Positions 10,336-40,062 of a stretch of DNA of 47,058 nt are shown here, one piece after another. Position 1 is the first letter of the stretch, and each line of letters begins with the position of its first letter. Both the position numbers and the translations under genes were made by a program. This DNA is from an uncultured Clostridia bacterium. Lineage in GTDB: Bacteria > Bacillota > Clostridia > Oscillospirales > Ruminococcaceae. A model generated the notes under the pieces. It made no database searches and was not told the DNA's origin. It saw only the letters and a program-made list of their open reading frames with translations. The stretch spans positions 1-47,058 of the forward strand of contig CANQWD010000020.1 of assembly GCA_947627465.1 (NCBI GenBank), written 5' to 3'.

Positions 10336-10348
10336 AGCAAATTCCTTT

Positions 10349-10528
10349 CTAAGGCTACACCGCACAATTATTGTCGAGCGGTTGCGCCGTCAAATTTTTC
10401 GGCAGATTGTACAAAGTCGACGCAGACGGGCTTTCGCCCGTCAAGGAGACTTTGTGCAAGATGTCGGAAAATTTGCAAGCAAACGCCGACAAAGCCCGAA
10501 GGGCGGTAATTGTGCGGTGTTGCCCTAA
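10349..10528. mobile_element. miniature inverted-repeat element (MITE-like) upstream of ptsH
   Basis: The left end AAGGCTACACCGCACAATTA and right end TAATTGTGCGGTGTTGCCC are inverted copies over about 17 bases. The interior is also a long imperfect palindrome, centred on GACGGGC-TTTC-GCCCGTC (10425-10442) inside an ACAAAGTC/GACTTTGT stem. It has no reading frame for a transposase. CTAA at both edges may be a target duplication, but the ends are slightly degraded. Other members are at 1-75, 16079-16174 (partial), 16236-16471 and 47043-47058. Confidence 0.7.
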
Positions 10529-10535
10529 ATATAAA

Positions 10536-11513
10536 TTATAAGGAGCCGTATTGCTGCCTTATTGTTTCCAAAGTCGGATATGACGGTATTGCGCCGTATT
10601 TCTGAACGCTTTCCGCGCAGAACGCGTTGGCGAAATCAAGGCACGCGCGCTGTTCCCGTTCGTCTATTGTCTCAAGCGTTTGCGGCGTAATTCCAAGTTC
10701 GCATAGTTTCCACAAAAATGAACCTATAAACCCATCGCCCGCGCCCGTGGTATCCTTGACACTCACCTTGTAAGCACTGCTTACCGACGCATTGTTATCG
10801 GTGAACGCGTAAGCGCTGCCGCCGCCGCAGGTGTATACGATCATCTTGACGTTGCCCGTAAGCAGCTTGGGAATACCCTTTTTGAAGTCGCTCTCGCCCG
10901 TAATGAATTCCAGTTCCTCATCGGATATTTTTAAAATATCGCTCATGGGGATAAATTCGTGAACAGTTTCTTTCAGCTTCTCGGGATCGTCCCAGAGCTG
11001 AAAGCGCAGATTGGGATCGAAGCTTATCAGACCGCCGTGCTTACGCGCCGCTTCTATCGCCGCGTAATGCGCCTGTTTCATCGGAAAATCTCCGAGCGAA
11101 ACACTGCAAAAGTGAAGCGCGAACACGTCCTCAAACCACTCGTCCTTTATCTGCTTCGCCGATAACAGCATGTCAGCGGACGGCATTCGATAAAACGAAA
11201 ACGTGCGGTTTCCGTCCTCGGCAAGACTTACGAAAGCAAGCGCCGTATTCGCCTTGTCGGTCTGCGAAATACAAGAGGTATCTATGTCACAATCTGCAAG
11301 TTCGCGAATTATCTTGTCGCCGAACGGGTCGTCTCCAAGCTGTGTTATCAGCCGCGCAGAGCCGCCCAACCTCCCGAACGCTCCGCACACATTCGCGGGA
11401 GCGCCGCCGAGCTTCGGCGAAAATCCCGTGACCTCGTAAAACTCGCACCCGCTTTTGTCGGGGATAAAATCTATCAATGCTTCGCCTATCGCGATAAGTC
11501 TTTTATTCGCCAA
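10536..11513 (-). CDS. scrK: fructokinase, PfkB family
   Basis: A 325-residue ribokinase-type sugar kinase that phosphorylates the fructose released by ScrB. The N terminus has the sugar-binding GEALIDF and LGGAPANVCGAFGRLG motifs. The C-terminal anion hole and catalytic base are in DTTGAGDGFIGSF. The start codon is TTG, chosen because GGAGGTG lies seven bases before it and the frame overlaps the end of scrB by 11 bp. It is the third gene of scrA-scrB-scrK. A second 325-residue fructokinase is encoded at 23901-24878. Confidence 0.93.
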   Translation of the reverse strand: MANKRLIAIGEALIDFIPDKSGCEFYEVTGFSPKLGGAPANVCGAFGRLGGSARLITQLGDDPFGDKIIRELADCDIDTSCISQTDKANTALAFVSLAEDGNRTFSFYRMPSADMLLSAKQIKDEWFEDVFALHFCSVSLGDFPMKQAHYAAIEAARKHGGLISFDPNLRFQLWDDPEKLKETVHEFIPMSDILKISDEELEFITGESDFKKGIPKLLTGNVKMIVYTCGGGSAYAFTDNNASVSSAYKVSVKDTTGAGDGFIGSFLWKLCELGITPQTLETIDEREQRACLDFANAFCAESVQKYGAIPSYPTLETIRQQYGSL

Positions 11514-16183: not shown

Positions 16184-16230
16184 GAAAAATACCCCATGCT
16201 TTTTTTCGTTCTGCCGAAGCATAGGGGATA
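16184..16230 (-). terminator. stem-loop with T-run reading toward scrR
   Basis: On the minus strand CCCCTATGCT and AGCATGGGG pair with one bulge, and TATTTTTC follows. It would stop transcripts arriving from the mobile region before the scrR promoter. Confidence 0.6.
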
Positions 16231-16235
16231 TTTAT

Positions 16236-16471
16236 TTAAGTCAACACCGCACAAAGACCGACCTACGGTCTTTGTACGGCATCTACTTGCAAATTTTCCG
16301 TCATTTTTGCCAAAAACTTCTTGAAATACGTCAGTATTACTTCGTCGTTTTTGGCAATCTGACGTGATCTCCCCCGGTGGGGGGAGGTGTCGCGTAGCGA
16401 CAGAGGGGCTGACCGATAGACAAAATTTGTCGGCGTATCTGCCGCACAATCTTTGTGCGGTGCTGCCTTAA
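16236..16471. mobile_element. MITE-like element, 236 bp, TTAA-bounded
   Basis: Terminal inverted repeats are TTAAGTCAACACCGCACAAA and TTTGTGCGGTGCTGCCTTAA. Inside are TTGCCAAAAAC/GTTTTTGGCAA (about 16307-16353) and a GGGGGAGGTGTCGCG... hairpin ending near 16425. There is no transposase frame. TTAA at both ends is compatible with a 4-bp target duplication. Confidence 0.7.
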
Positions 16472-16545
16472 ACGATTATAAATCCGTATTTTCAAGGGAT
16501 ATAAAAATAAGAACCTCATTATAATGCGTCTCTTTACTGTTTTGA

Positions 16546-16973
16546 GACATTGTTACCTAAATGCTTTTCTCAGCGAACGCTGAAAAAAGCAAACACAGGA
16601 GGAGAGTAGCAACCCCGCACTGTTTTCGCGGTAATGAATTATCCCCCACGCTTTGCGCGGGGGATAATTCATTACCGTGACATCGTTACCAAAAAGATTT
16701 TTCGGCAAACACCGAAAAAGGCAACGCAAGAAGAGTGGAGTAACACCGAGCGTTTTTCACGGTTTCGCGAAGCGAAATCGCGGACGAAGTCCGCGAAGTG
16801 AAAAACGCGCCCGGCGATGAGCGCCGTCAAGCCGCGAAGCGGCGCAGACGACACCATCGCGGTAAATGCAAATTACCCCTTGCAAAGCATGGGGTAATTT
16901 GCATTTACCGGTGTGAAACGCTGACAAAAAAGATTTTTTTCTGTTTCACAAAAAATCGCCACTGCTTCCCTTT
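16546..16973 (-). ncRNA. palindromic structured array, probably transcribed
   Basis: No believable protein is encoded. Two very stable hairpins have 18- and 19-bp perfect arms: 16630-16647 with 16659-16676, and 16861-16879 with 16891-16909. Between them GCGTTTTTCAC (16750-16760) pairs with GTGAAAAACGC (16798-16808) and encloses two smaller hairpins, giving a three-way junction. The stretch beginning GACATTGTTACC (16546) recurs as GACATCGTTACC (16679) and more weakly near 16920, so units are tandem. A strong minus-strand promoter lies directly upstream (16980-17009). It could instead be a cluster of REP-like repeats. Confidence 0.4.
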
Positions 16974-16979
16974 AAATAC

Positions 16980-17009
16980 ATTATAATGTATAAGCCATAT
17001 GAATGTCAA
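16980..17009 (-). promoter_or_regulatory. sigma-A promoter reading into the palindromic array
   Basis: On the minus strand TTGACA (17004-17009) and TATAAT (16980-16985) are perfect and 18 bp apart. No gene lies downstream before the scr region, only the structured array. Confidence 0.75.
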
Positions 17010-17090
17010 GCCTTTTTTTACAGCCTATCAAAAATTGCTCTGCTGAAGTTCCGTCCGTACTCTGACAGACAATCCATTATATACGGCATT

Positions 17091-17636
17091 TCACATCCCC
17101 ATAGACATTCCCATTTCTTCGGACTCGTCCTGATCCTCGGATTCGTCCAAATCCTCGTCCTCATCGTCAAAATCGTCCGAAAAATCGGTGCTTTCCTGTT
17201 CCTCGGGTTCTTCCCCGACCTCCTCGGAAACGCTCTCACAATCGCTCACAGCGGCTGTTTCTTGACGTTCTGTGTGTTCCTCTACCACTCTCTCGGAATC
17301 GGTCGGTGCTTCGCTCATGTCTGCGCGCTGTGTTAAATCACGGTTGATCTCGGTTTCGATCAGCCCGATCACGAACTGCTTTTGCGTCATATTATTGCGC
17401 TGCAGATAGTCTTTAATCTTTTGAAAAAGCTCCTCCGGTACCTGAAACGCCAAAGTTCTCATATTTCCCATGTTCTTGTCCTCCTGCATATTAAGTTTAG
17501 GGTGAAGCTCATTCTGAAGCGCCATGCTTACAAAGTCCCCCATTGTCATTGCGTGTTCTTCAATGTACCGCCTGACCTCCGCGTGAAGTTCCGCGTCGAT
17601 CTTGACGGTAACACCTTTTTTCTCGTTAGTTGACAT
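17091..17636 (-). CDS. tandem ribbon-helix-helix protein with acidic tail
   Basis: A 181-residue protein with two RHH-like segments: TVKIDAELHAEVRRYIEE... (about 9-44) and RTLAFQVPEELFQKIKDYL... (about 59-95). The C-terminal half is strongly acidic (runs such as SDDFDDEDEDLDESEDQDES) and ends in Met/Gly residues. RHH proteins of this kind in clostridial mobile elements are DNA-binding regulators or relaxosome/partition accessories; which one cannot be told. AAGGGAT precedes the ATG. Its start overlaps the small gene upstream by 11 bp, placing it last in the recombinase operon. Confidence 0.75.
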   Translation of the reverse strand: MSTNEKKGVTVKIDAELHAEVRRYIEEHAMTMGDFVSMALQNELHPKLNMQEDKNMGNMRTLAFQVPEELFQKIKDYLQRNNMTQKQFVIGLIETEINRDLTQRADMSEAPTDSERVVEEHTERQETAAVSDCESVSEEVGEEPEEQESTDFSDDFDDEDEDLDESEDQDESEEMGMSMGM

Positions 17637-17760
17637 TGTCCATATCCCTTTCTAAATATTTTCTAAACGCAGATTCCGCAATATCTTCTATTGCGGAACC
17701 CGTTTGTGCCGCCTCTATAAGCAGCAGTTCATAAAGCCATGCCGGAATCTCAATCTCCAT
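17626..17760 (-). CDS. small RHH-like protein, 44 residues
   Basis: The protein begins MEIEIPAWLYELLLIEAA and ends KYLERDMDNVN, with a beta-strand then two helices as in a minimal ribbon-helix-helix fold. It overlaps the stop of the recombinase gene upstream by 11 bp and the start of the acidic-tailed RHH gene by 11 bp. AAAGGAT lies five bases before its ATG. The double overlap and good ribosome site make it a likely real gene despite its size. A repressor or antidote-like role is conceivable, but nothing proves it. Confidence 0.7.
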   Translation of the reverse strand: MEIEIPAWLYELLLIEAAQTGSAIEDIAESAFRKYLERDMDNVN

Positions 17761-19384
17761 TTAAATCCTTTCGTATTTCAAAGCCGCCTTTAAAGGTAAC
17801 CGTTATGGTGTCCTTGCTTTCGACCGTGACCTTTTCAATAAGCTGCCGTACCGCAACATCATCGTATTCGGTCATGGTGAAATCCTCGTTTTCGAGCCGT
17901 TCCAGAATCGCGTCAAGCTCGGCGGAGCCTCTTTGAGCCGTCATCTGTTTCGCTTTTTCGGTTTCAATGAACTCCCGCAGCGTTTTCATTTCCTCACTGA
18001 ATTTCTCGATATCCGACATCGCGCTTTGCGCTGTTTCGGGTACGGTTGCCAGCTTTATCAGCTCGTCTATGTTGTGTGCCAGTTCGTCGATCCGTTGCTG
18101 TGCTGCCTGTACGCTGCCATTAAGATTCGGGTCAAGCACTTCGGTTATGCTTTCACGGAGTGCCTTTGCCACATCATCCTTGACCTCGCAGAACTCGTTT
18201 ATTGCGCTTACAATCGCTCTGTGGAGTGTCTGTTCCTCCACGGTCGGAGAACTGTGGCATTTCTTTTTTCCGTATTGGATTCGATTGATACAGCGCCACT
18301 TTATTTCCTTGAAGCCTTTAGCAGTCCATGTTACTCGGCGGTAATGTGAACCGCACTCGCCGCATATCAGCAGCTCCGACAGCGCATATTTGGCGCTATA
18401 CTTGCCTTGCTCGGTCTTGCCGAGTTTACTCGCAATCGCTTTCTTTGCACCTCGCCGTGCCATTTCTTCCTGCACCCGATTGAAGTCGGCTCGGGATATG
18501 ATCGGCTCGTGATGGTTCTTGACCAGATACATCGGCAGTTCGCCGTTGTTCTTGCGGCTCTTTTTGGTAATGCAGTCGGTTATGTAGGTTTTTTGCAGGA
18601 GAGCATCGCCCGTATATTTTTCGTTTACGAGAATGCTTTTCACGACCTCGGTTTGCCATACGGTTTGCTTGTGCTTCGTTTTAATACCTCGGGAGTTGAG
18701 CGAATCGGCAATCTGCTTAAGGCTCATTCCGTCAAGGTAGCTGCGAAAAATCTCTTTTACGATCTCCGCTTCCTCGGGTATGATTTCGGGAAGGTCGTTC
18801 TCGCCCTTTTTATATCCGAGCAGCTTTTTGTATTGTATCGGCACATTGCCGCTTTTGAAGCTCTGCCGCACTCCCCATGATACGTTTTTACTTATCGACT
18901 CGGACTCCGCTTGGGCAAAGCAGCTCATGATCGTGATTAGCATTTCACTTTCCGCAGTCAGCGTGTTGATATTTTCTTTTTCGGAGATGACCGCTATTCC
19001 GAGCATTTTCAGTTCTCTGATGTAATTCAAGCTATCGACAGTATTTCTTGCGAATCGGGATAGTGATTTTGTAAGGATCACATCGATTTTGCCTTGTCTG
19101 CACAGTCTGATCATTTTGAGAAATTGGGGGCGTTTTTTTGCTTGCGTTCCCGTAATGCCCTCGTCCGCAAAAATGCCAGCCATTTGCCAATCGGGGTTCT
19201 TGTTGATCTTGTTGGTGTAGTATTGGATTTGCGCTTCATAACTGGTTTTCTGCTCTTTGTCATCGGTACTGACTCTGCAGTATGCCGCAACTTTCAAGCA
19301 TTTCGTCGCCTTTTTAATTTCCTCCTGAGCTTTGGCGGGTATCATTACGATCCGCATATTGTTTTGTGTTGCCGTTGCTATCAT
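17750..19384 (-). CDS. large serine recombinase A
   Basis: Site-specific recombinase of the resolvase/invertase large-serine group, 544 residues. The catalytic domain has Ser39 in AYCRVSTDD and the arginine-bearing SLSRFARNTVDSLNYIREL. A Recombinase domain follows (about 195-300), then a zinc-ribbon (CGECGSHYRR with a later C...KKKCH) and a C-terminal coiled coil (about 405-500). GAGGTGCGAAC precedes the ATG, which overlaps the preceding gene's stop by 4 bp (ATGA). It is likely to integrate or excise the element together with recombinase B. Its attachment sites were not identified. Confidence 0.93.
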   Translation of the reverse strand: MIATATQNNMRIVMIPAKAQEEIKKATKCLKVAAYCRVSTDDKEQKTSYEAQIQYYTNKINKNPDWQMAGIFADEGITGTQAKKRPQFLKMIRLCRQGKIDVILTKSLSRFARNTVDSLNYIRELKMLGIAVISEKENINTLTAESEMLITIMSCFAQAESESISKNVSWGVRQSFKSGNVPIQYKKLLGYKKGENDLPEIIPEEAEIVKEIFRSYLDGMSLKQIADSLNSRGIKTKHKQTVWQTEVVKSILVNEKYTGDALLQKTYITDCITKKSRKNNGELPMYLVKNHHEPIISRADFNRVQEEMARRGAKKAIASKLGKTEQGKYSAKYALSELLICGECGSHYRRVTWTAKGFKEIKWRCINRIQYGKKKCHSSPTVEEQTLHRAIVSAINEFCEVKDDVAKALRESITEVLDPNLNGSVQAAQQRIDELAHNIDELIKLATVPETAQSAMSDIEKFSEEMKTLREFIETEKAKQMTAQRGSAELDAILERLENEDFTMTEYDDVAVRQLIEKVTVESKDTITVTFKGGFEIRKDLNGD

Positions 19385-19884
19385 GTTCGCACCTCACATA
19401 TCGTCTTATATTTCAGTTGAGCGCACTTGATTATAAGCGCCTCGACTTTTACCTTATCGAGATTTTCGGAATCGAGCAGCCGATTTATTTCATTGGTCAT
19501 GCGCTGAATTTCGTCGGTCGGCTCATAATTCGTGATTATTATTTCGGACTGCCGTATTTCGTCCTGCGTAGCGGGTTTGCGGTATGTATTGCGCCCCGCT
19601 TTTATTTCGGCGGCGCGAATAAAATCCTCATCGGAAATTATCTTCGGGAATCCGTCCTCGCCGATATATTTTGTGTTCTCAATTACTCGGCAGACCATGT
19701 TCTTATTCCAGACCGCCTTGCCCGTATTATATGGTATCTGCATTTCCGCGGCTATTGTTTTCAGCGATTTTCCGCCTATATATTCGGCGAATATTTTCCG
19801 CACCGCTTCCGCCTCGGGAACGTTCAGCGCGTATTTTCCGTTCACCATGCAGTAGCCGAACGGTATGCTCCTGTTTTTTAACAT
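19381..19884 (-). CDS. recombinase-like protein lacking the catalytic domain
   Basis: A 167-residue protein that resembles only the middle Recombinase domain of large serine recombinases. Signs are PFGYCMVNGKYALNVPEAEAV, then KSLKTIAAEMQIP and a VIENTKYIGEDGFP stretch, ending in a coiled-coil-like helix. The resolvase domain with the catalytic serine is absent, and no remnant of it lies upstream, only four bases from recombinase B. It is co-translated with both neighbours (GAGGTGATGAG before its ATG; 4-bp overlap with recombinase A). It probably acts as a DNA-binding accessory or directionality subunit; this is inferred. Confidence 0.85.
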   Translation of the reverse strand: MLKNRSIPFGYCMVNGKYALNVPEAEAVRKIFAEYIGGKSLKTIAAEMQIPYNTGKAVWNKNMVCRVIENTKYIGEDGFPKIISDEDFIRAAEIKAGRNTYRKPATQDEIRQSEIIITNYEPTDEIQRMTNEINRLLDSENLDKVKVEALIIKCAQLKYKTICEVRT

Positions 19885-19888
19885 CTCA

Positions 19889-21421
19889 TCACCTCACGAT
19901 CCGTTCTGTAAAGCCTATCCCGCCAATCAAGTCGAAGCGTATTTCCGATTCCGACAGCACCGTGATTTTCTCAACGATCAGCCCGAACTTGATTTCATCA
20001 AATTCGTCTATCTGTTCGGCTCTCTCAAATATTCCGATCAGCTTCCGCAGTTCGTCGAGCCTTTCGCCGTCCTTGTCGTCAAGATTGGCATGGAGATGCT
20101 TTTGGGCGGTCAGCAGTTTTCGGTCAAGCTCTTGGGTACGAACTGTGAAGTACGCACCGTCAAGCGTTCCTTGCGAGTTCAGCATGGTCAGCAAGTAGGT
20201 TTGCTGCTTGATCTCGGATATTTCCTTGCGAAGCTCGGCAAGCTGCGTGTTGCCTGATTTTTCTCTGTCGGAGAGCGTTTCAAGTTGGCGGAGCATGGGT
20301 GTGAGAATCGCTTTGTAATGCGCTTGGAGCTTGTTCCACAGCCTTATAAAAGCGCTTTGGAATACCCACTCGCCGATTTGCCTGATGTCGCAATCGCCGA
20401 TATTCTTGTGATCGTGGTTTCGGCATACCCAATATATTTTTTCGCCGTTCTTTTTTCGCCTGAACGTTCCGCCGCATATACATTTTATTTTGCGGCGGAA
20501 CACGTTCGGCTGCGGATTGAAATTATTGTCCAGTTTTCTTGACCTTATCAGCGACTGAACTTCTTTAAACAGACCGCGTTCTATAATGGGTTGATGAGTG
20601 TCGCTTATGTAATACTGCGGTTTCTCACCACGGTTTAATGTTTGACGGAAGGGCAGGGTATCGGTCATGAAACTCTTTTGCAACAAGGTATCGCCTATAT
20701 ACTTTTCGTTCGATAAAATTTCCGATATCCGTGCCGACCGCCATTTTCCGTTTTGAGATGTGGGAATGTTCGCTTTGTTCAGCCTTGCCGATATTTCTTC
20801 CACACCGATCCCATTGGCATACCATGAAAAAATCTGCTTGACGATTTTCGCTTTTTCGGGGTTTATTTTTAATTTCCCGTCTACATAATCATATCCGAAC
20901 GGGGTGGACGCGGTTTTGTAGGTGCCGTCCATCATGCGCTTTTTGACTCCCAATCGGCAGTTCTTGGATATCGACATGGATTCCTCTTGGGCGAATTGGC
21001 TGTATATCGCCAGCATCATTTCCGAGCTGACCTCGGAGGTGTCGATATTCTCCTTTTCAAAGTATACCGATATGCCGAGCGTTTTCAGCTCTCGTACTGC
21101 CTCGAGGCTGTCTTTGGTGTTTCGCGCGAACCTCGATATTGATTTAACGAGTATCCTGTCGATTTTTCCTTTTCGGCAGTCGCTCATCAACCGTTGGAAC
21201 TCGGTGCGCTTTGCTGTTCCCGTGCCGCTTATTCCCTCGTCTGCGTACATATCCACGAACACTGCGTCGGTGCTGTCCTTTAGCAACTCGGTGTAGTACC
21301 TGATCTGTGCCGCAAATGAGTTTAGCTGATCCTCGCTGTTACTCGAGACTCGGGCATAAGCCGCTGTCCTTACGATTCCATCGGAACGATCTTTTGCGGG
21401 TATAATCGTAATTTCAGCCAT
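19889..21421 (-). CDS. large serine recombinase B
   Basis: A 510-residue serine recombinase, paralogous to recombinase A. The catalytic Ser26 is in AYARVSSNSEDQ, with KSISRFARNTKDSLEAVREL carrying the active-site arginines. A Recombinase domain (about 165-270), zinc-ribbon (CICGGTFRRK...CRNHDH) and coiled coil (about 370-450) follow. MAEITII was chosen as start because GGAAGTGAT lies seven bases before it, inside the longer frame. It is first of the three recombinase-type genes. Having two active recombinases of different sequence suggests a heteromeric system, like CcrA/CcrB, but this is an analogy. Confidence 0.93.
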   Translation of the reverse strand: MAEITIIPAKDRSDGIVRTAAYARVSSNSEDQLNSFAAQIRYYTELLKDSTDAVFVDMYADEGISGTGTAKRTEFQRLMSDCRKGKIDRILVKSISRFARNTKDSLEAVRELKTLGISVYFEKENIDTSEVSSEMMLAIYSQFAQEESMSISKNCRLGVKKRMMDGTYKTASTPFGYDYVDGKLKINPEKAKIVKQIFSWYANGIGVEEISARLNKANIPTSQNGKWRSARISEILSNEKYIGDTLLQKSFMTDTLPFRQTLNRGEKPQYYISDTHQPIIERGLFKEVQSLIRSRKLDNNFNPQPNVFRRKIKCICGGTFRRKKNGEKIYWVCRNHDHKNIGDCDIRQIGEWVFQSAFIRLWNKLQAHYKAILTPMLRQLETLSDREKSGNTQLAELRKEISEIKQQTYLLTMLNSQGTLDGAYFTVRTQELDRKLLTAQKHLHANLDDKDGERLDELRKLIGIFERAEQIDEFDEIKFGLIVEKITVLSESEIRFDLIGGIGFTERIVR

Positions 21422-21535
21422 CTCATCACTTCCTTTCAAACACAGTATACCGAAACGGTTTGGGTTTATCTATTACCAATGCTACCGAAATATCCGAGGC
21501 TTTTTGTATCAAAACTGACAAAAGCGGACAAGAGT

Positions 21536-21676
21536 TCAAACCTCTGAGATCCGCTTTATAACAGCCTTTTCGATTTTTCGGCGCTGCGCCTCGGTTATAA
21601 GGTTCTCGTTCAACAGCTTGTCCAGAAAATTTCTGCACAAGTAGAATTTGTACCTGATGATCGCTTCATTGTCCAT
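21536..21676 (-). CDS. SHOCT-like small protein, 46 residues
   Basis: The peptide starts MDNEAIIRYKFYLCRNFLDK and continues with LLNENLITEAQRRKIEKAVI. The pattern of a short helix followed by 'L...NLIT..Q..KI' is that of SHOCT domains, often found in recombinase-linked small proteins. GGAGGAA lies nine bases before the ATG, supporting translation. It is the first small gene upstream of recombinase B, with a 114-bp gap. A role in recombination control is possible but not shown. Confidence 0.75.
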   Translation of the reverse strand: MDNEAIIRYKFYLCRNFLDKLLNENLITEAQRRKIEKAVIKRISEV

Positions 21677-21743
21677 TTTTTGTTCCTCCATACTCTTATA
21701 TTAAATGTGCAATTTTCAATCTTGTTCGGAAACTCAACTGAAA

Positions 21744-22230
21744 TTTGCACACTTTTCAGTGTGCAAACGGTCGCGGTTCCGCGCGATAACAGAGCCGTAA
21801 CCTTATATTTTAACAGCGAATTTCTTCGCTTGTTTGCCTGTAAAACTGTCGTATTTGCCCCGCACCCCCGACATCGGGAATATTTCAGACTGTTGTTGGC
21901 ACAACATCATGGGACTCTCACCCCGGCATGGTTCTCATGCCGCCGCCCCCATTGCTTCTAACTGTGGCTGGACGGAAGTATCATTATCCCCCTGTGCAGG
22001 TTATCGCGCACTTGCTGCCACGCAAGTTTTGGGAGCTTGTCCTTATCGCTCGGTTATATACCATCTTACGGAATAATCTTGAGCCGAGGCTCGTCCGGCA
22101 AAGTGCCGTGCTTGTCCTATCTTGTGATATAGGGAACGTCTTGGCGGGATGCTCCTTTCGCTTTCAACCACTATGGGCTGCACAAGGGAAAGTATCTGAA
22201 ATACTGCTATTAAGTTTTCAAAGAACACAA
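21744..22230 (-). ncRNA. large structured non-coding region between sigma-like and recombinase genes
   Basis: About 490 bases without a credible gene but dense in local hairpins. Examples are TTTGCACAC/GTGTGCAAA (21744-21767), CGCG-GTTC-CGCG (21772-21783), CCCGA/TCGGG (21867-21878), GTTGT/ACAAC (21892-21905), GGCATG/CATGCC (21925-21941), ACTTGC/GCAAGT (22010-22027), GAGCC/GGCTC (22081-22092), CGGC/GCCG (22096-22108) and CCTAT/ATAGG (22116-22133). It would be transcribed on the minus strand after the sigma-like gene. I cannot assign it to a known RNA family. An old decayed coding region is the alternative, but short frames on both strands look random. Confidence 0.5.
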
Positions 22231-22263
22231 GGGGAAAAATTTACCCCTCTACTATATGGAGAT

Positions 22264-22689
22264 TTACCCCCCGTTTTGTACACCCCTTTTCGGAAAATAT
22301 TTTAAAAAAATTTTTCTTGCTCCCCAAATTGACTTGGCGACGGAGTTTGTTCCAACGCCCTCGAGACGCGCTATCTTTCTCATTGAATACCCCTTAATCA
22401 CCATTATAAGCCGTCTGCGTTGTGTTTCGGTCAATTCGCTCATTGCTTGATCGATGAGTATCTCGTTGCGGGATTTGTCGTTTTTTCGCTGCAAAATTAT
22501 TTCGGGAGTTTCGCCGGTGCTGAGTTCTTTGCCCTCATATACGGAGCTTTCTACCGAAAAGCAGTGATAACGCTCCTTGCGTGAGAGATTTTCCTCGTCC
22601 TGTCGGTATTCTATAATAAGGCTGCCGATAGCCTCGTCCACCTCGACCTCCGAAACGGTGCCGTCTGCGAATTTATACTTGATTATCAT
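22264..22689 (-). CDS. sigma-70-like helix-turn-helix protein of mobile elements
   Basis: A 141-residue protein that begins MIIKYKFADGTVSEVEVDE, has a charged middle, and ends with a sigma region 4-like helix-turn-helix (about 85-130). That part reads LTETQRRRLIMVIKGYSMRK followed by IARLEGVGTNSVAKSIW. Small sigma-like proteins with this N terminus are frequent in clostridial conjugative elements and probably control transfer or excision genes. GGAGGATTACATA precedes the ATG, and this ribosome site can be trapped in a stem with upstream CTCC. It lies between the leader (upstream) and the structured region (downstream). A truncated copy is at 39699-39760. Confidence 0.82.
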   Translation of the reverse strand: MIIKYKFADGTVSEVEVDEAIGSLIIEYRQDEENLSRKERYHCFSVESSVYEGKELSTGETPEIILQRKNDKSRNEILIDQAMSELTETQRRRLIMVIKGYSMRKIARLEGVGTNSVAKSIWGARKIFLKYFPKRGVQNGG

Positions 22690-22726
22690 TATGTAATCCT
22701 CCGATCTTGAAATATGGTTAATGGTT

Positions 22727-22990
22727 TCAAGATTGGAGGGGAGGTGCGCGGGAGCGGTAAAACGCTGTATAATGACCTTTTACGACATAAAAAAAGCGCG
22801 TCCGGTGTAAATCGGACGCGCTGCGGTCGTATCTTTCGGGAAATAAATCGTTTGCTTGTATATTCTGTAATTTCCTTTTATTTTTTGTCGAACGAAAAAA
22901 TCCCGCAATCCTTTTGAGGACTGCGGGATCGGTATTTATATGTATCGCTCTTGTTGACGGAGAGCTTGTCCGTTTATATCGTTTTTGCAC
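22727..22990 (-). CDS. leader reading frame upstream of the sigma-like gene
   Basis: An 87-codon frame running through the leader from a GTG start (AGGGG six bases before it, itself in an ATATCCCC/GGGGATAT stem). The product would be basic, starting VQKRYKRTSSPSTR. It spans both leader terminators and ends at a TGA inside the 5' arm of the stem that hides the ribosome site of the sigma-like gene. In the second copy the same frame continues until its stop overlaps the next ATG (TAATG). That coupling suggests it is translated, perhaps mainly as a regulatory leader; the product resembles no protein I know. A TTG start nine codons earlier is possible. Confidence 0.42.
   Translation of the reverse strand: MQKRYKRTSSPSTRAIHINTDPAVLKRIAGFFRSTKNKRKLQNIQANDLFPERYDRSASDLHRTRFFYVVKGHYTAFYRSRAPPLQS
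22789..22821 (-). terminator. second leader terminator
   Basis: On the minus strand GCGCGTCC and GGACGCGC form an 8-bp stem with a 10-base loop, followed by TTTTTTT. It lies about 100 bases before the sigma-like gene, so it would attenuate it. The copy at 39861-39893 keeps the stem through a G-U pair. Confidence 0.8.
22895..22928 (-). terminator. first leader terminator
   Basis: On the minus strand TCCCGCAGTCC and GGATTGCGGGA pair over 11 positions, one a G-U wobble, followed by TTTTTT. On the plus strand the same position would be an A-C mismatch, so the minus RNA is the functional one. It is conserved at 39967-40000. Confidence 0.82.
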
Positions 22991-23054
22991 TATATCCCCT
23001 ATCCGGGGATATATCAAGAATTGTCGTTCCCCATAGAAATTAGTCTATGAGGGC

Positions 23055-23111
23055 ATTATATCATAGAATTATGTAGAAACTCTGTAGATTTACAGTAGAA
23101 ATACAGTAGAA
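23055..23111 (-). promoter_or_regulatory. activator-type promoter with five TAGAA repeats
   Basis: The -10 TATAAT is at 23055-23060. In place of a -35, TAGAA/TAGAT (read on the plus strand) occurs at 23064, 23074, 23085, 23096 and 23107, spaced 10, 11, 11 and 11 bases. Direct repeats at one helical turn upstream of a -10 are the usual target of OmpR/PhoB-type winged-helix activators. The winged-helix gene directly upstream is the obvious candidate. An identical arrangement is at 40127-40183. Confidence 0.75.
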
Positions 23112-23128
23112 AAACGCAAGTTACGACA

Positions 23129-23163
23129 AAAACAGCCGTTCCTCCGATGTGAACGGCTGTTTT
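23129..23163 (-). terminator. terminator of the winged-helix regulator gene
   Basis: AAAACAGCCGTTC and GAACGGCTGTTTT form a 13-bp stem with a 9-base loop and T-runs on both strands. It separates the regulator gene from the repeat promoter. Confidence 0.88.
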
Positions 23164-23164
23164 C

Positions 23165-23590
23165 TTATTTGACCGAATCGAACCTATAACCTACCGATCG
23201 AATATTTTTTATTGTAAATTGTGCGTCAGGAGCTACTTGTAATATCTTTCTGCGAAGGTTACCTATATGGCAGGTAACTGTGTTCTTCGTGTTTCCAAAC
23301 GGCTCCTCATTCCACACGGTTTGATAAATCCGATCATATTCCAAGGTTATTCCTTTATTCAGCGCAAGCACGCACAATAATGCATATTCCTTTGCTGTCA
23401 AATCAATTTTTTGATGATTGTAGCACACCGTTCTTAGGTTAAAATGAATTTCAAGCCCGCAAACCCGCAGCACCGATTCATCTTTGATTTGGTAATACTC
23501 ATATTCTGAACATTCTTTTAAAACCGCCATTATCTTATCGAAAACACAAGATGTTTCGTCATTGAATTCGATTATTAAAATGCGGTTAAT
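23165..23590 (-). CDS. OmpR-type winged-helix regulator without receiver domain (copy 1)
   Basis: A DNA-binding protein whose C-terminal half (about 55-141) is an OmpR/PhoB winged helix: DLTAKEYALLCVLALNKGIT, then WNEEPFGNTKNTVTCHIGNL and the closing RSVGYRFDSVK. The first 50 residues retain only a RILIIEF-like strand and no phospho-acceptor Asp, so it is not a normal response regulator. The homology with copy 2 reaches back to an ATT codon at 23588-23590, seven bases after GGAGG. That makes ATT the likely start; an ATG at 23530 gives 121 residues. It probably activates the repeat promoter downstream. It also follows the sugar operon by 84 bp without a clear terminator. Confidence 0.8.
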   Translation of the reverse strand: MNRILIIEFNDETSCVFDKIMAVLKECSEYEYYQIKDESVLRVCGLEIHFNLRTVCYNHQKIDLTAKEYALLCVLALNKGITLEYDRIYQTVWNEEPFGNTKNTVTCHIGNLRRKILQVAPDAQFTIKNIRSVGYRFDSVK

Positions 23591-23674
23591 ACTATCACCT
23601 CCATCATTCGTAACTTATATCATCAAATTAGTTTAATGCCGGTTAGATTAAGCCGACAGGCGATTGTACGGATC

Positions 23675-23914
23675 TTAGACTGTGACAAACTGATCAAGGC
23701 ATTCTTTGATATCATTTGTTAAAGCCTCATCTGATGAATCAATTTTCAACAACAGCGGACAGCTCAAGTCAAGACTGAACAAACCCATTATGGATTTTGC
23801 GTCCACAACATATCTTCCGGATACCACATCTATCTCACAGTTGAACCTTGTTGCGATGTTTACAAAATTCTTAACATCGTCAATCGTTGCAAGTTTGATT
23901 TTAAGCTCTGTCAT
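23675..23914 (-). CDS. HPr-like (Crh-like) protein lacking the catalytic His
   Basis: A 79-residue HPr-fold protein. The place of phospho-His15 is Lys15 (IDDVKNFVN instead of GIHARPA), so it cannot be phosphorylated by enzyme I. The HPr-kinase site is conserved as AKSIMGLFSLDL (Ser41). That is the Crh pattern: a corepressor form for CcpA rather than a phosphocarrier. TAAGGAGGA precedes the ATG, and it overlaps the fructokinase gene by 14 bp, making it the last gene of the raffinose operon. Together with the Ser46-less HPr at 10078-10335, the two functions appear split between proteins. HPr kinase is not encoded in the window. Confidence 0.85.
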   Translation of the reverse strand: MTELKIKLATIDDVKNFVNIATRFNCEIDVVSGRYVVDAKSIMGLFSLDLSCPLLLKIDSSDEALTNDIKECLDQFVTV

Positions 23915-24878
23915 TTGTGTTCCTCCTTATCATCTCGGCAATTTCCGACATTGTCGGCATAACCTTAAGCGCACCTTTCCGTTCTGTTACAATTCCCGCC
24001 GCTGCATTTGCAAACACGAGCATATCTTTAAGTTCCGAATCTGAGAAATCCCGCATTCCATATTCCAGAATTTTTCCGAGTACCGCTCCGCAAAATGTGT
24101 CGCCCGCTCCGGTGGTTTCTATTGTATTGGCAGCCGCAATCGGTACTGATGCGTATCCGCTCTTTGAATATGCCCGACTGCCGTTCCTCCCGAGAGACAA
24201 AAGCAGAAGAGAAATATTTGTGTATTTCTTACGAATCTCTTGTACAGCTATTTCAAAATCGCTTTCGTCTGTCAACCATTGTATTTCGTTATCGGAAATC
24301 TTTAATATGTCACAATGGGATAAGCCGTATTCGATTTTCTCACGAGCCGTTTCAAGGTTATCCCAAAGATTTTCACGCAGATTCGGATCAAACGAGACTA
24401 ACGCTCCGTACCTCTCCGCAGTGGCAACAGCTTTTTTAGTAGCCGATTCGCACATCTTGTTTGTCATTGAAATCGAACCATAGTGAAATACTCTGCTTTC
24501 GGCAATAATCTTCTCATTTACGTCCGATTCACTCAGCATCATATCCGCACCGGGATTTCTATAAAATGAAAACTCGCGGTCACCGCCATCAAGCGAGTGT
24601 ACGAATGCCAGCGTTGTGTTTACCGACCTGTCGGTAATAAGTCCTTCGGTGTTAATGCCAATATCTTCAACCGTTTTGCGAAGCTGTCGCCCGAAAATAT
24701 CATCACCGATCTTTCCGATAAAAGCGGTATTGTAGCCCTGTTTACATAGCATTGCAAGCACGTTGCACGGCGCACCGCCGGGGTTTGCTTCCATAATCGG
24801 GTTTCCCTGTGAACTGATCCCATTCTCGGTAAAATCAATCAACAATTCTCCCAGCGCACATACATCGAATCTTGGCAC
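23901..24878 (-). CDS. fructokinase / PfkB sugar kinase of the raffinose operon
   Basis: A 325-residue ribokinase-family kinase with N-terminal GELLIDFTENG, the sugar-binding NPGGAPCNVLAMLC, and the catalytic ETTGAGDTFCGAVLG near the C terminus. It is a clear paralogue of the scrK product, with the same length. The substrate is probably fructose released by sucrose phosphorylase upstream in the operon. The start codon is GTG, with GGAGGTG nine bases before it. It lies 50 bp after galT and overlaps the Crh-like gene at its end. Confidence 0.92.
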   Translation of the reverse strand: MPRFDVCALGELLIDFTENGISSQGNPIMEANPGGAPCNVLAMLCKQGYNTAFIGKIGDDIFGRQLRKTVEDIGINTEGLITDRSVNTTLAFVHSLDGGDREFSFYRNPGADMMLSESDVNEKIIAESRVFHYGSISMTNKMCESATKKAVATAERYGALVSFDPNLRENLWDNLETAREKIEYGLSHCDILKISDNEIQWLTDESDFEIAVQEIRKKYTNISLLLLSLGRNGSRAYSKSGYASVPIAAANTIETTGAGDTFCGAVLGKILEYGMRDFSDSELKDMLVFANAAAGIVTERKGALKVMPTMSEIAEMIRRNTNDRA

Positions 24879-24928
24879 TATACTTCACCTCCGAAATATC
24901 TTTCTTTTGTTCTACACATATTTATATG

Positions 24929-26434
24929 TTATATATGACATTTTTGTATGTCTTGGACGAAATTTTCAAAAGCAGCCTTGCCCTTGTTATCCCTTTTGAA
25001 CACGCCGGAATCGAACAGAACCTGCTCAAATACTGCGCCGATCTCCCTTTTTAATATATCATCGGCAGTTTTTTCGGAAAAGTCGTGGTATCTGTTCAGA
25101 ATATCCGATGCCCATTCAGCGTGGGACATGATTTCAGGCTTCTCGGAAATGGATGTTCCGTTACACATACACTGTTTAAGCAATTCCGTTTCTTTTGCCA
25201 GCCTTGCCGGAAGAACCGCCAATCCCATTACTTCAATCAAACCAATATTTTCTTTTTTAATATGATGAAGAGACGGATTAGGGTGAAAAATACCGAGCGG
25301 TCGCTCCGGAAGTGTACGATTGTTGCGGAGAACCAGATCGCAGGTGTATGTATTTTGATTTTTTCTTGCGATTGGGGTAATGGTATTATGCGGGATATTG
25401 CCGGTGTGTGAGATTATATCAAGCTGCTTGTTATCATATTCTTTCCACATATTTAAGATCATTGTACAGGCTTCCGTAAGCTCGGTTCTGTTCTCGGAGT
25501 ATAGCCTGATCACGGACATAGGCCACCTCAGAATCCCACCCGAAACGTTTGAATAGCGTTCTAACGCAAACCGATACTCAATAGGTGCTTTCTCCATAGC
25601 GAAAGTATATCGTCCGCCTTGAAAATGCTCGTGACTTAATATTGAGCCGCCAACAATCGGCAAATCGGCGTTAGAACCGAAGAAGTAATCGGGGAAGCGG
25701 TCTACTGCGTCAAACAGCTTTTCAAAAACGGAGCGGTCTATTTTCATGGGCGTGTGGCGAGTATTGAAAAGAATACAATGCTCGTTATAGTAACCGTAAG
25801 GGGAATATTGGAGCTGCCACGGTTCTCCGCCTATTTCGACCGACACGGGACGCAGATTCTGCCGGGCAGGTCGGCTGACATTTCCCGCAAATCCCGCATT
25901 TTCCGGACACAACATACACTTGGGATAATCGGTAGATTGAGCAGTCTTTGCAAGAGCGATATCGCGAGGATCTTTTTCGGGTTTGGAACGGTTGATGGTG
26001 ATGTCCAGTTCACCGTACTCCGAGTTGAATTTCCACCGCAAGTCCTTCTTCATTCTTTCGGCACGAATGTAATTCAGCTTCTTGCCCAGATCATAATACC
26101 AGTCCGTAGCGGCAGACGAAGATTTTTTGCAGAGCTGCATAAAACGAGCATTTACTTCTCGGGGCATTGGGGTTATAATTCCCATCAGCTTTGTATCGTA
26201 CAGATCACGTGAGTTGGCAGTGTCGGCAATTATCCCATTTTCGCAGGCATGATCCACTAAAGGAGCAAGGATATCGTCAATCGTTTCATCGGAATATTCC
26301 GCATCTGTATGCTGCCAGTCGGTCAGTCCCAGAGCTTCCATAAGCTGATTTCGGATAACGTAGATGTCGGTGTTTTCGATCAGCCCATTTTTTAAAGCAT
26401 AGCCAATAAATCTCTCAACATTATCACAAATCAT
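24929..26434 (-). CDS. galT: galactose-1-phosphate uridylyltransferase, Firmicutes type
   Basis: Leloir enzyme exchanging UDP between glucose-1-phosphate and galactose-1-phosphate, 501 residues, the usual length of the class II (GalT2) form. The pattern includes YPKCMLCPENAGFAGNVSRP, SPYGYYNEHCILF and the active-site-like GGSILSHEHFQGG. The C-terminal half is typical of this family and absent from the shorter class I enzyme. AAGGAG lies before the ATG. It sits 11 bp after galE in galK-galE-galT order, so the complete galactose branch is in one operon. Confidence 0.96.
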   Translation of the reverse strand: MICDNVERFIGYALKNGLIENTDIYVIRNQLMEALGLTDWQHTDAEYSDETIDDILAPLVDHACENGIIADTANSRDLYDTKLMGIITPMPREVNARFMQLCKKSSSAATDWYYDLGKKLNYIRAERMKKDLRWKFNSEYGELDITINRSKPEKDPRDIALAKTAQSTDYPKCMLCPENAGFAGNVSRPARQNLRPVSVEIGGEPWQLQYSPYGYYNEHCILFNTRHTPMKIDRSVFEKLFDAVDRFPDYFFGSNADLPIVGGSILSHEHFQGGRYTFAMEKAPIEYRFALERYSNVSGGILRWPMSVIRLYSENRTELTEACTMILNMWKEYDNKQLDIISHTGNIPHNTITPIARKNQNTYTCDLVLRNNRTLPERPLGIFHPNPSLHHIKKENIGLIEVMGLAVLPARLAKETELLKQCMCNGTSISEKPEIMSHAEWASDILNRYHDFSEKTADDILKREIGAVFEQVLFDSGVFKRDNKGKAAFENFVQDIQKCHI

Positions 26435-39033: not shown

Positions 39034-39702
39034 CTAATTATTCTTTCTTGTTCTGGGCGAACGTTTCTTATCCAAGAAGTCAGCCGTCATATCTTTAAAG
39101 TCATCCTTGAACTCGATTGGCACGGGTTTCGGCGAAAACCTCTCTAAAACCGCCGCCTCAACCTCGCGACTATCGGCGTACTGCACCTTGCGCTCGGATT
39201 TTTCCTCAATGGAGTAGGCGTTTTCAAACTGAATACCCCACTTGAAGAACAGCTTTAAGCGCGTTTTCATCGGGTGACAGCCCGTTTTCATCACGATAAA
39301 GTGACCTTTCGGCATGGATTTCAGCTCGTCGACAGTCATTAGTGGTCGCTCAATCATCTGCAATGACCGCGACGCGCCGTCCTTTCCCGCCGACCGTGAC
39401 ACTGAGCCGCTGAGTACGGTCTGCTTTCCGAGGTTCTGAGACATCGCCTCGGCGGTCTTGGAATTGGGCGCGAACGCTCCGAACAGTGTGCATTGGCAGT
39501 TGTCCACGATGATTTCCGTGCCCTCTTTGCCGTAGGTTTTCTCAAACTGCGCGAGCGACTGTATTATCGCGACTATTGAAACCTTTCGGGAACGCGATGC
39601 GGAGAATATCATTTCCAAGCCATCGACTTTGGGCAGCGTCCCGATCTCATCCATATAAAACATCACACGCTTGTCGAGCTGACCACCTTTCTCGTCTGCT
39701 AG
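39034..39702 (-). pseudogene. virD4: 3' fragment of a VirD4/TraG-type coupling protein
   Basis: About 222 residues match the C-terminal half of VirD4-type conjugal coupling ATPases. These bring DNA to the type IV secretion channel. The Walker B-like RVMFYMDEIGTLPKVDGLEM is followed by SASRSRKVSIVAIIQSLAQF and the conserved GSVSRSAGKDGASRSLQM stretch, then LKSMPKGHFIVMKTG. The Walker A half is missing. Upstream the frame runs into the start of the sigma-like gene: the shared bases GAGGCTAGC mark the junction near 39700. The longer frame starting at 39735 is thus a fusion artefact. It is decayed evidence of a former conjugative element. Confidence 0.85.
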
Positions 39703-39760
39703 CCTCGTCAACCTCAACCTCCGAAACGGTGCCATCTGCGAATGTATACTTAATAATCAT
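39699..39760 (-). pseudogene. truncated copy of the sigma-like gene
   Basis: The first 20 codons (MIIKYTFADGTVSEVEVDEA) match the intact gene at 22264-22689, with the same ribosome site. After GACGAGGCTA the sequence turns into VirD4-coding DNA, so the rest was lost by deletion or recombination. It is preceded by the second leader copy. Confidence 0.85.
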
Positions 39761-40062
39761 TATGTAATCCTCCGATCTTGAAATATGGTTAATGGTTTTT
39801 TAAGATCGAAGGGAGGTGCACGGGAGCGGTAAAACGCTATATAATGACCTTTTACGACATAAAAAAAGCGCATCCGTGGTAATTCGGACGCGCTGCGGTC
39901 GTATCTTTCTGGAAATAAATCGTTTGCTTGTATATTCTGTAATTTCCTTTTATTTTTTGTCGAACGAAAAAATCCCGCAATCCTTTTGAGGACTGCGGGA
40001 TCGGTATTTATATGTATCGCTCTTGTTGACGGAGAGCTTGTCCGTTTATATCGTTTTTGCAC
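39760..40062 (-). CDS. leader reading frame, second copy
   Basis: A 100-codon frame from GTG, homologous to 22727-22990 but longer at the 3' end. Its last codons are read through the ribosome site and its TAA overlaps the ATG of the sigma-like start (TAATG). This is a classic coupling arrangement. Differences between the copies include silent changes (a Pro codon, an Ala codon) and a few replacements. The frame runs through two intrinsic terminators, so it could be a regulatory leader. The encoded basic protein is not recognisable. Confidence 0.42.
   Translation of the reverse strand: MQKRYKRTSSPSTRAIHINTDPAVLKRIAGFFRSTKNKRKLQNIQANDLFPERYDRSASELPRMRFFYVVKGHYIAFYRSRAPPFDLKKPLTIFQDRRIT

Follow-up and report, generated by a model that had tools for sequence, protein, structure and literature searches.

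The window analysed here is a 47,058-nt stretch of DNA from an uncultured Clostridia bacterium. On its minus strand, read 5' to 3', a winged-helix gene is followed by a promoter, a hairpin that traps a ribosome site, a leader frame with the intrinsic terminators T1 and T2, an R-A-P-P motif, a second hairpin that hides the SD of the next gene, and finally a sigma-like gene (Table 1). The first-pass annotation of this DNA had described two good minus-strand terminators between a repeat promoter and the sigma-like gene, a leader frame crossing both, and a ribosome site of the sigma-like gene hidden by pairing, all of which were borne out by our analysis. The stems of T1 and T2 are the longest among the 10 terminator-like sites in 20000-26000, a number that is by itself not unusual against shuffled sequences (7.0 +/- 3.1). 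The two arms of the SD-hiding hairpin pair at 13 of 14 positions (-17.6 kcal/mol, z -5.4), and the entire leader RNA folds with a z of -7.5, which none of 100 shuffles equalled. The leader frame is open to its TGA from either GTG 22990 or the alternative start TTG 23017, which gives 96 aa. Its start had been placed in an SD-trapping stem; the SD does lie within that stem, which contains GGGG ahead of the leader GTG, whereas the GTG itself stands just 3' of it. In this copy, R-A-P-P is located directly 5' of the hiding arm. The leader matches no Rfam family at gathering score, and the sole Rfam match in the window, a pemK RNA, lies outside the leader.

Table 1. Features of the leader locus (copy 1), its surroundings and the second leader copy in the window.
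Feature	Position	Strand	Evidence or remark
VanR-like winged-helix protein without receiver domain, directly upstream of the leader	23165..23530	-	PF00486; best NCBIfam match vanR, far under cut-off
11-bp direct repeats (CTA plus 8 nt), running into TATAAT	23066..23109	-	lag-11 identity 0.63, shuffle p 0.0005
-10 element TATAAT	23055..23060	-	sequence
Hairpin TATATCCCC/GGGGATATA trapping the leader ribosome site	22991..23013	-	fold -14.0 kcal/mol, z -3.1
Leader frame, 87 aa, GTG 22990 to TGA 22727	22727..22990	-	peptide end YRSRAPPLQS-stop
Intrinsic terminator T1, 14 pairs	22899..22930	-	terminator scan; covariation
P2 5' strand TTCGACA	22886..22892	-	near invariant, 91.8% of cells paired
Intrinsic terminator T2, 10 pairs	22795..22822	-	terminator scan; two-sided changes in 7/10 pairs
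P2 3' strand TGTCGTAA	22780..22787	-	covariation analysis
R-A-P-P codons CGC GCA CCT CCC	22739..22750	-	motif function after excerpts of PMC10951233 and PMC12992588
Hiding arm CTCCAATCTTGAAA	22725..22738	-	masks ribosome site of sigma-like gene by pairing with TTTCAAGATCGGAG
Complementary arm TTTCAAGATCGGAG	22699..22712	-	hidden SD GGAGG at 22702-22698
Sigma-like gene, 141 aa	22264..22689	-	PF08281, E 2.5e-5, 24.2 bits, just under cut-off 25.7
Three serine recombinase genes (516, 167, 544 aa)	17750..21439	-	profile matches
Copy 2 leader frame, 100 aa, also R-A-P-P	39760..40062	-	gene start 39760

A second copy of the leader at 39.7-40.2 kb shares 97% identity with copy 1 over 441 bases. In copy 2, the frame runs on through the arm, and its TAA shares bases with the ATG that follows. 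The sigma-like gene is kept there for about 20 codons and then breaks into the tail of a VirD4-type conjugation gene from the CD1115 family (39034-39760), and copy 2 is probably a deletion remnant of the element. With a pemK RNA and three serine recombinase genes beyond copy 1 and this junction at copy 2, the leader probably belongs to an integrative/conjugative-type element. The two copies become identical where the winged-helix gene reaches its 3' end, and we considered a site-specific att site at this position. We dropped this candidate because related genes precede other leaders too and one leader (L067) lacks the gene by blast; a comparison of 23050-23330 with 16300-17800 gave no shared words of at least 10 nt.

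The repeat promoter consists of 11-bp direct repeats ahead of the -10 element, with the spacing of PhoB/OmpR-type sites, and the repeats are possibly binding sites of a winged-helix protein of that type. A winged-helix gene was found upstream of the leader in both window copies, at L148, L149, L164 and L021 by blast and at L156 by reading; none was found at L041, L043, L067 or L074. The repeats are significant in three of nine leader promoters, and the step connecting the winged-helix protein with the promoter is therefore tentative.

Relatives of the leader could hardly be reached by DNA similarity to the window leader, which matched 2 of 297 genomes of the family, namely its own genome and one 35-nt terminator match. 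No match was obtained against plasmids and phages, and scans of viral contigs gave no relative of the leader; a search with the L149 leader gave a single plasmid record and nothing among phages. The first relatives were reached through the neighbouring recombinase, among the best 80 of 176 loci, where the leader was then located by blastn. The leaders of L041, L043 and L067 precede sigma-like genes, and those of L074, L075, L077 and L078 precede an XRE-type gene. L148 and L149 were found with the L074 leader, and L156 and L164 with a covariance model covering T1 to T2 only. At E <= 0.001, the covariance model R1 matched 10 of 392 genomes, of which G000, G309, G349 and G595 carry leader-type sequence by reading. 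The weak matches in the other six genomes (L157-L162 and L165) were dropped, as they look like ordinary terminators by eye on reading of L157-L162.

The architecture is kept among these relatives. Over T1, P2 and T2 in the seven model sequences, 95.8% of the cells pair, and two-sided changes occur in 10 of 27 pairs, a result equalled by none of 500 shuffles. Features that played no role in selecting the covariance-model matches are conserved as well. The SD hairpin of the downstream gene is present in all nine distinct leaders (z -2.4 to -8.0), and the hairpin over the leader's own SD has a z of -2.1 or lower in six of nine, with L043, L067 and L156 as exceptions. From the start codon to the motif, the frame is open in eight of the nine, copy 1 included. 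The combined P over the eight open ones is 1.1e-8, from which L041, the exception with an out-of-frame sequence and three stops, was left out. The first-pass annotation also had the leader frame stop in the arm that hides the next ribosome site. Copy 1 and L164 have such a stop, but it is not general, as copy 2, L074, L149 and L156 read through the arm. In L043 (290-740) and L067 (4380-4800), the frame continues through R-A-P-P into the sigma-like gene, a read-through that, going by the sequence, would give an N-terminally extended sigma-like protein. No conserved N terminus of the leader peptides was seen by eye.

Because the leader peptide ends in YRSRAPPLQS, we scanned the window and all loci gathered by then for R-x-P-P, in any frame, between -14 and +12 nt relative to the hiding arm at ribosome sites inside strong hairpins. 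The motif was found at 42 of 295 distinct strong hairpins, or 39 after setting aside three that we judged by their frames and downstream sequence to be chance R.PP sites (L020 at 2663, L071 at 7237 and L110 at 958). With a laxer hairpin threshold, it was found at 43 of 643. Copy 2 is absent from the hairpin count, as its truncated gene fails the length filter. At E <= 0.01, the proteins downstream of the 39 sites matched Pfam Sigma70_r4_2 (sigma region 4) in 34 cases and HTH_3 (XRE-type) in three. The R-x-P-P frame is the longest open upstream run at 37 of the 39 sites, the exceptions being L021 and L035. Part of the Pro-Pro can come from the anti-SD arm itself; over 238 clustered groups, Arg at position -2 of Pro-Pro occurs in 24 of 35 frames that are open for at least 40 codons compared with 3 of 28 shorter ones (p 2.9e-6). 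At the 39 non-redundant R-x-P-P sites (out of 58 from both rounds), the full sets of Arg (six) and Pro (four) codons are in use. The x residue is Ser in 20, Ala in 7, Gly in 6, Asp in 4 and Pro in 2 of 39 sites, and the residue before Arg, a position not used for selection, is Cys in 28 of 39. Cultured bacteria with such a leader include Pseudoflavonifractor gallinarum DSM 107456 (L073, RGPP) and Anaerofilum sp. An201 (L074, RDPP).

Outside the motif, the peptide drifts, and the substitutions in the leader frames are spread evenly over the three codon positions. Across the alignments of four subfamilies (19 sequences), 13 of 14 distinct gaps nevertheless have a length divisible by three. In the window's own low-identity subfamily, this holds for 4 of 14 pairwise gaps, and we tentatively attribute the out-of-frame gaps there to poor alignment. 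These sequence patterns indicate that the motif is under selection for its amino acids and the leader for its frame. A switch whose working part is the ribosome and not the peptide would be expected to show this combination of an open frame, a peptide free to change and an arrest motif that stays fixed. Amino-acid-specific attenuation was rejected because of the even distribution of substitutions over codon positions and because no kept run of codons was seen by eye.

We propose that the region is the regulatory leader of an integrative/conjugative-type Clostridia element, in which a frame threads two terminators and an arrest at R-x-P-P opens the hidden SD of a sigma-like gene; we put the probability of this reading, with arrest and regulation inferred, at roughly 0.7. 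The data show the arrangement of the locus and its conservation, as well as where the motif sits and that its amino acids are kept. If the leader were untranslated, T1 or T2 would end transcription, and such mRNA as reached full length would be silent. Ribosome loading on the leader would be limited by the SD-trapping hairpin. A leader ribosome trailing RNA polymerase would prevent T1 and T2 from folding, resulting in antitermination, and would then presumably arrest once R-A-P occupies the P site and the codon of the second Pro has entered the A site. The leading edge of the arrested ribosome would cover the hiding arm and free the SD, a second ribosome could then start the sigma-like gene, and the sigma-like protein may switch the element on. 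The layered on-switch by leader translation suggested previously fits the terminators, the SD hairpin, the open frame recurring in distant relatives, the compensatory changes and the in-frame gaps, but it missed the R-x-P-P before the hiding arm, which is the probable opener of the last block.

When we modelled a ribosome block at R-x-P-P, positioned so that the A site holds the second Pro codon, the median chance of an unpaired SD rose from 0 to 0.38 over the 39 sites and exceeded 0.8 in one of them. A block 6 nt earlier opened the SD more (0.62), and with a block 8 codons upstream the median stayed at 0. The motif is placed next to the hiding arm, as unmasking by a stalled ribosome requires, with a modelled opening that is partial. 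From the A-site codon downstream to the SD the distance is 28-44 nt, which would leave room for a second ribosome. According to the available portions of PMC12992588, RAPP and RGPP are versatile arrest sequences, RSPP and RDPP are partly permissive, and the ApdA/ApdP arrest is not rescued by EF-P; EF-P thus need not be the sensor here. The residues allowed at x in the 39 sites match the arrest-permissive residues given in those portions. By analogy with ApdA/ApdP, as described there, the only partial permissiveness of R-S-P-P, the commonest form here, would count against the arrest reading.

Strong hairpins without R-x-P-P revealed variants on reading, namely [R/K]-Y-P-stop (L145 and L080; L148 by eye), R-A-P-stop (L082) and C-R-A-P (L007). 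For a later test, the motifs R.PP and [RK].P-stop were fixed beforehand and sought at 29 loci whose genes encode homologues of the sigma-like protein of L149; 27 of the 197 genomes of the order contributed these loci. An SD hairpin was present in 28 of the 29 loci, and a motif stood at the predicted place in 24, comprising 18 R-x-P-P and 6 [K/R]-Y-P-stop. The misses were four loci with a hairpin and no motif, in two of which (L191 and L193, kept in the count of misses) the wrong start was probably chosen, and one locus without a strong hairpin. After the removal of L166 (the L149 locus), L175 (whose leader is the same as that of L045) and L169 (a near copy of L152), 21 of 26 sigma-like loci have the motif, and some of these 26 are interrelated. 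As controls, the motif was found at 1 of 37 other hairpins of the same loci and in 64 of 9051 random windows. L177, one of the later-test loci (R-S-P-P), comes from a different contig of the genome to which the window belongs. In place of R-x-P-P, the sequence W-x-x-x-I-[A/G]-[K/R]-Y-P-stop is common to L182, L183, L185, L187, L188, L194, L080, L145 and L148 upstream of the sigma-like gene; this second conserved leader end might also cause an arrest, in this case at the stop codon.

The same observations might be explained without an arrest. In plain translational coupling, the view of the first-pass annotation, a moving or terminating ribosome would remove T1, T2 and the SD hairpin in turn, with no stall at R-x-P-P. 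A frame kept while its peptide is free agrees with such coupling, as do the stop codons in the hiding arm of copy 1 and L164 and the TAA-ATG overlap in copy 2. We nevertheless consider it unlikely, for R-x-P-P is conserved with all Arg codons in use, x is nearly limited to arrest-permissive residues, and many leaders have no stop in the arm. The Pro-Pro could also be fortuitous, as one frame of CCTCC, the sequence that pairs with GGAGG, yields it unaided. Terminators occur frequently at the ends of elements; they might merely insulate the element from outside transcription, and the leader frame and Pro-Pro would be by-products of the terminators and the anti-SD sequence. The occurrence of the motif at only 1 of 37 comparable hairpins elsewhere, the restriction of the Arg enrichment to long open frames, the position of the motif in the longest frame (37 of 39) and the in-frame gaps all speak against such insulation, to which we give the least credence.

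It would also be conceivable that an RNA or protein-sensing element decides termination through P2 (TTCGACA...TGTCGAA) instead of translation. P2 is near invariant, and a matched change was seen by eye in L035. We demoted P2 as a switch because no two-sided change occurs in it among the seven leaders. Moreover, P2 can form only once T2 is transcribed, leaders with R-x-P-P turned up without selection for P2, and the leader has no Rfam match at gathering score; a P2-based decision appears very improbable to us.

The arrest reading has parallels among known systems. In the sections of PMC10951233, PMC10987492 and PMC12992588 that we draw on, RAPP-type arrest peptides (ApdA, ApdP, ApcA, SecM-like), most of which have export signals, guard sec, yidC and metal genes. 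The leaders described here resemble them in an upstream frame that has R-A/G/S/D-P-P near its end, immediately ahead of the region where the regulated gene begins; they differ in the mobile-element sigma-like and XRE genes that follow, in the drifting peptide and in having terminators within the frame. In Bordetella pertussis, CruR is likewise a RAPP uORF outside Sec/YidC that controls downstream genes, but it belongs to a copper response with a TonB receptor and no mobile element, as far as the consulted parts of PMC12992588 and PMC10951233 describe it. The mef(E)/mel system also combines a leader peptide with transcription attenuation on a mobile element, whereas macrolide induces resistance genes there and not the element's own regulator, according to extracts of PMC4335068.

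The leader of the window shares a frame running through an intrinsic terminator with the tet(M)-type attenuator of Tn916, but it precedes a sigma-like and not a resistance gene; it would work like such an attenuator without being one. In the Tn916 orf12-tet(M) attenuator, a leader frame overlaps intrinsic terminators on a Gram-positive conjugative element and controls a resistance gene, and we know of no R-x-P-P motif in it. R-x-P-P arrest peptides before sec, yidC and metal genes are known, as are leader peptides through terminators at resistance genes. A search of titles and abstract beginnings, with most subscription papers and all bioRxiv preprints outside its scope, did not turn up any description of an arrest leader that gates a conjugative-type element's regulator. 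The words 'conjugative' and 'mobile' are absent from the main text of PMC12992588, and 'conjugative', 'integrative' and 'sigma' from that of PMC10987492.

To our knowledge, little has been established on what makes an integrative element in gut Clostridia leave the chromosome. If our reading is correct, the control gene of such an element would be gated by a ribosome that trails RNA polymerase and then arrests at R-x-P-P, which would tie mobilisation to translation. It would also provide a simple signature, the motif together with the hairpin, by which such switches could be found, and it would place arrest peptides in a phylum in which the large survey of PMC12992588, in its accessible passages, saw no RAPP/RGPP upstream frames, reporting them absent in many Gram-positives including Bacillota. 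That survey, going by the same passages, used predicted proteomes and two motifs, so that unannotated, mostly R-S-P-P leaders would presumably have escaped it. At somewhat under even odds, Clostridia mobile elements may widely gate their own regulator by programmed arrest, with at least two motifs occupying the same position (C-R-x-P-P in most cases, besides W-x-x-x-I-[A/G]-[K/R]-Y-P-stop). In that case, host transcription-translation coupling would be the decision to mobilise, and ribosome drugs or starvation would directly set transfer.

A few further features were observed around the locus. The pemK RNA (RF02913, 67.8 bits) is located at 21907-21987, between the sigma-like gene and the recombinases; no PemK-like gene follows it, and a tblastn search of the window with the PemK of the relative L037 (PF02452) gave nothing significant. 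Downstream of the recombinase genes, two strong inverted repeats with short loops lie near each other at 16626-16680 (26 nt, 92%) and 16860-16910 (24 nt, 96%). A dispersed inverted-repeat family around TTGTGCGGTGTTGCC has several intergenic copies (24-82, 10340-10537 and 16228-16479), and a tandem duplication of 132 nt with 98% identity occupies 71-334.
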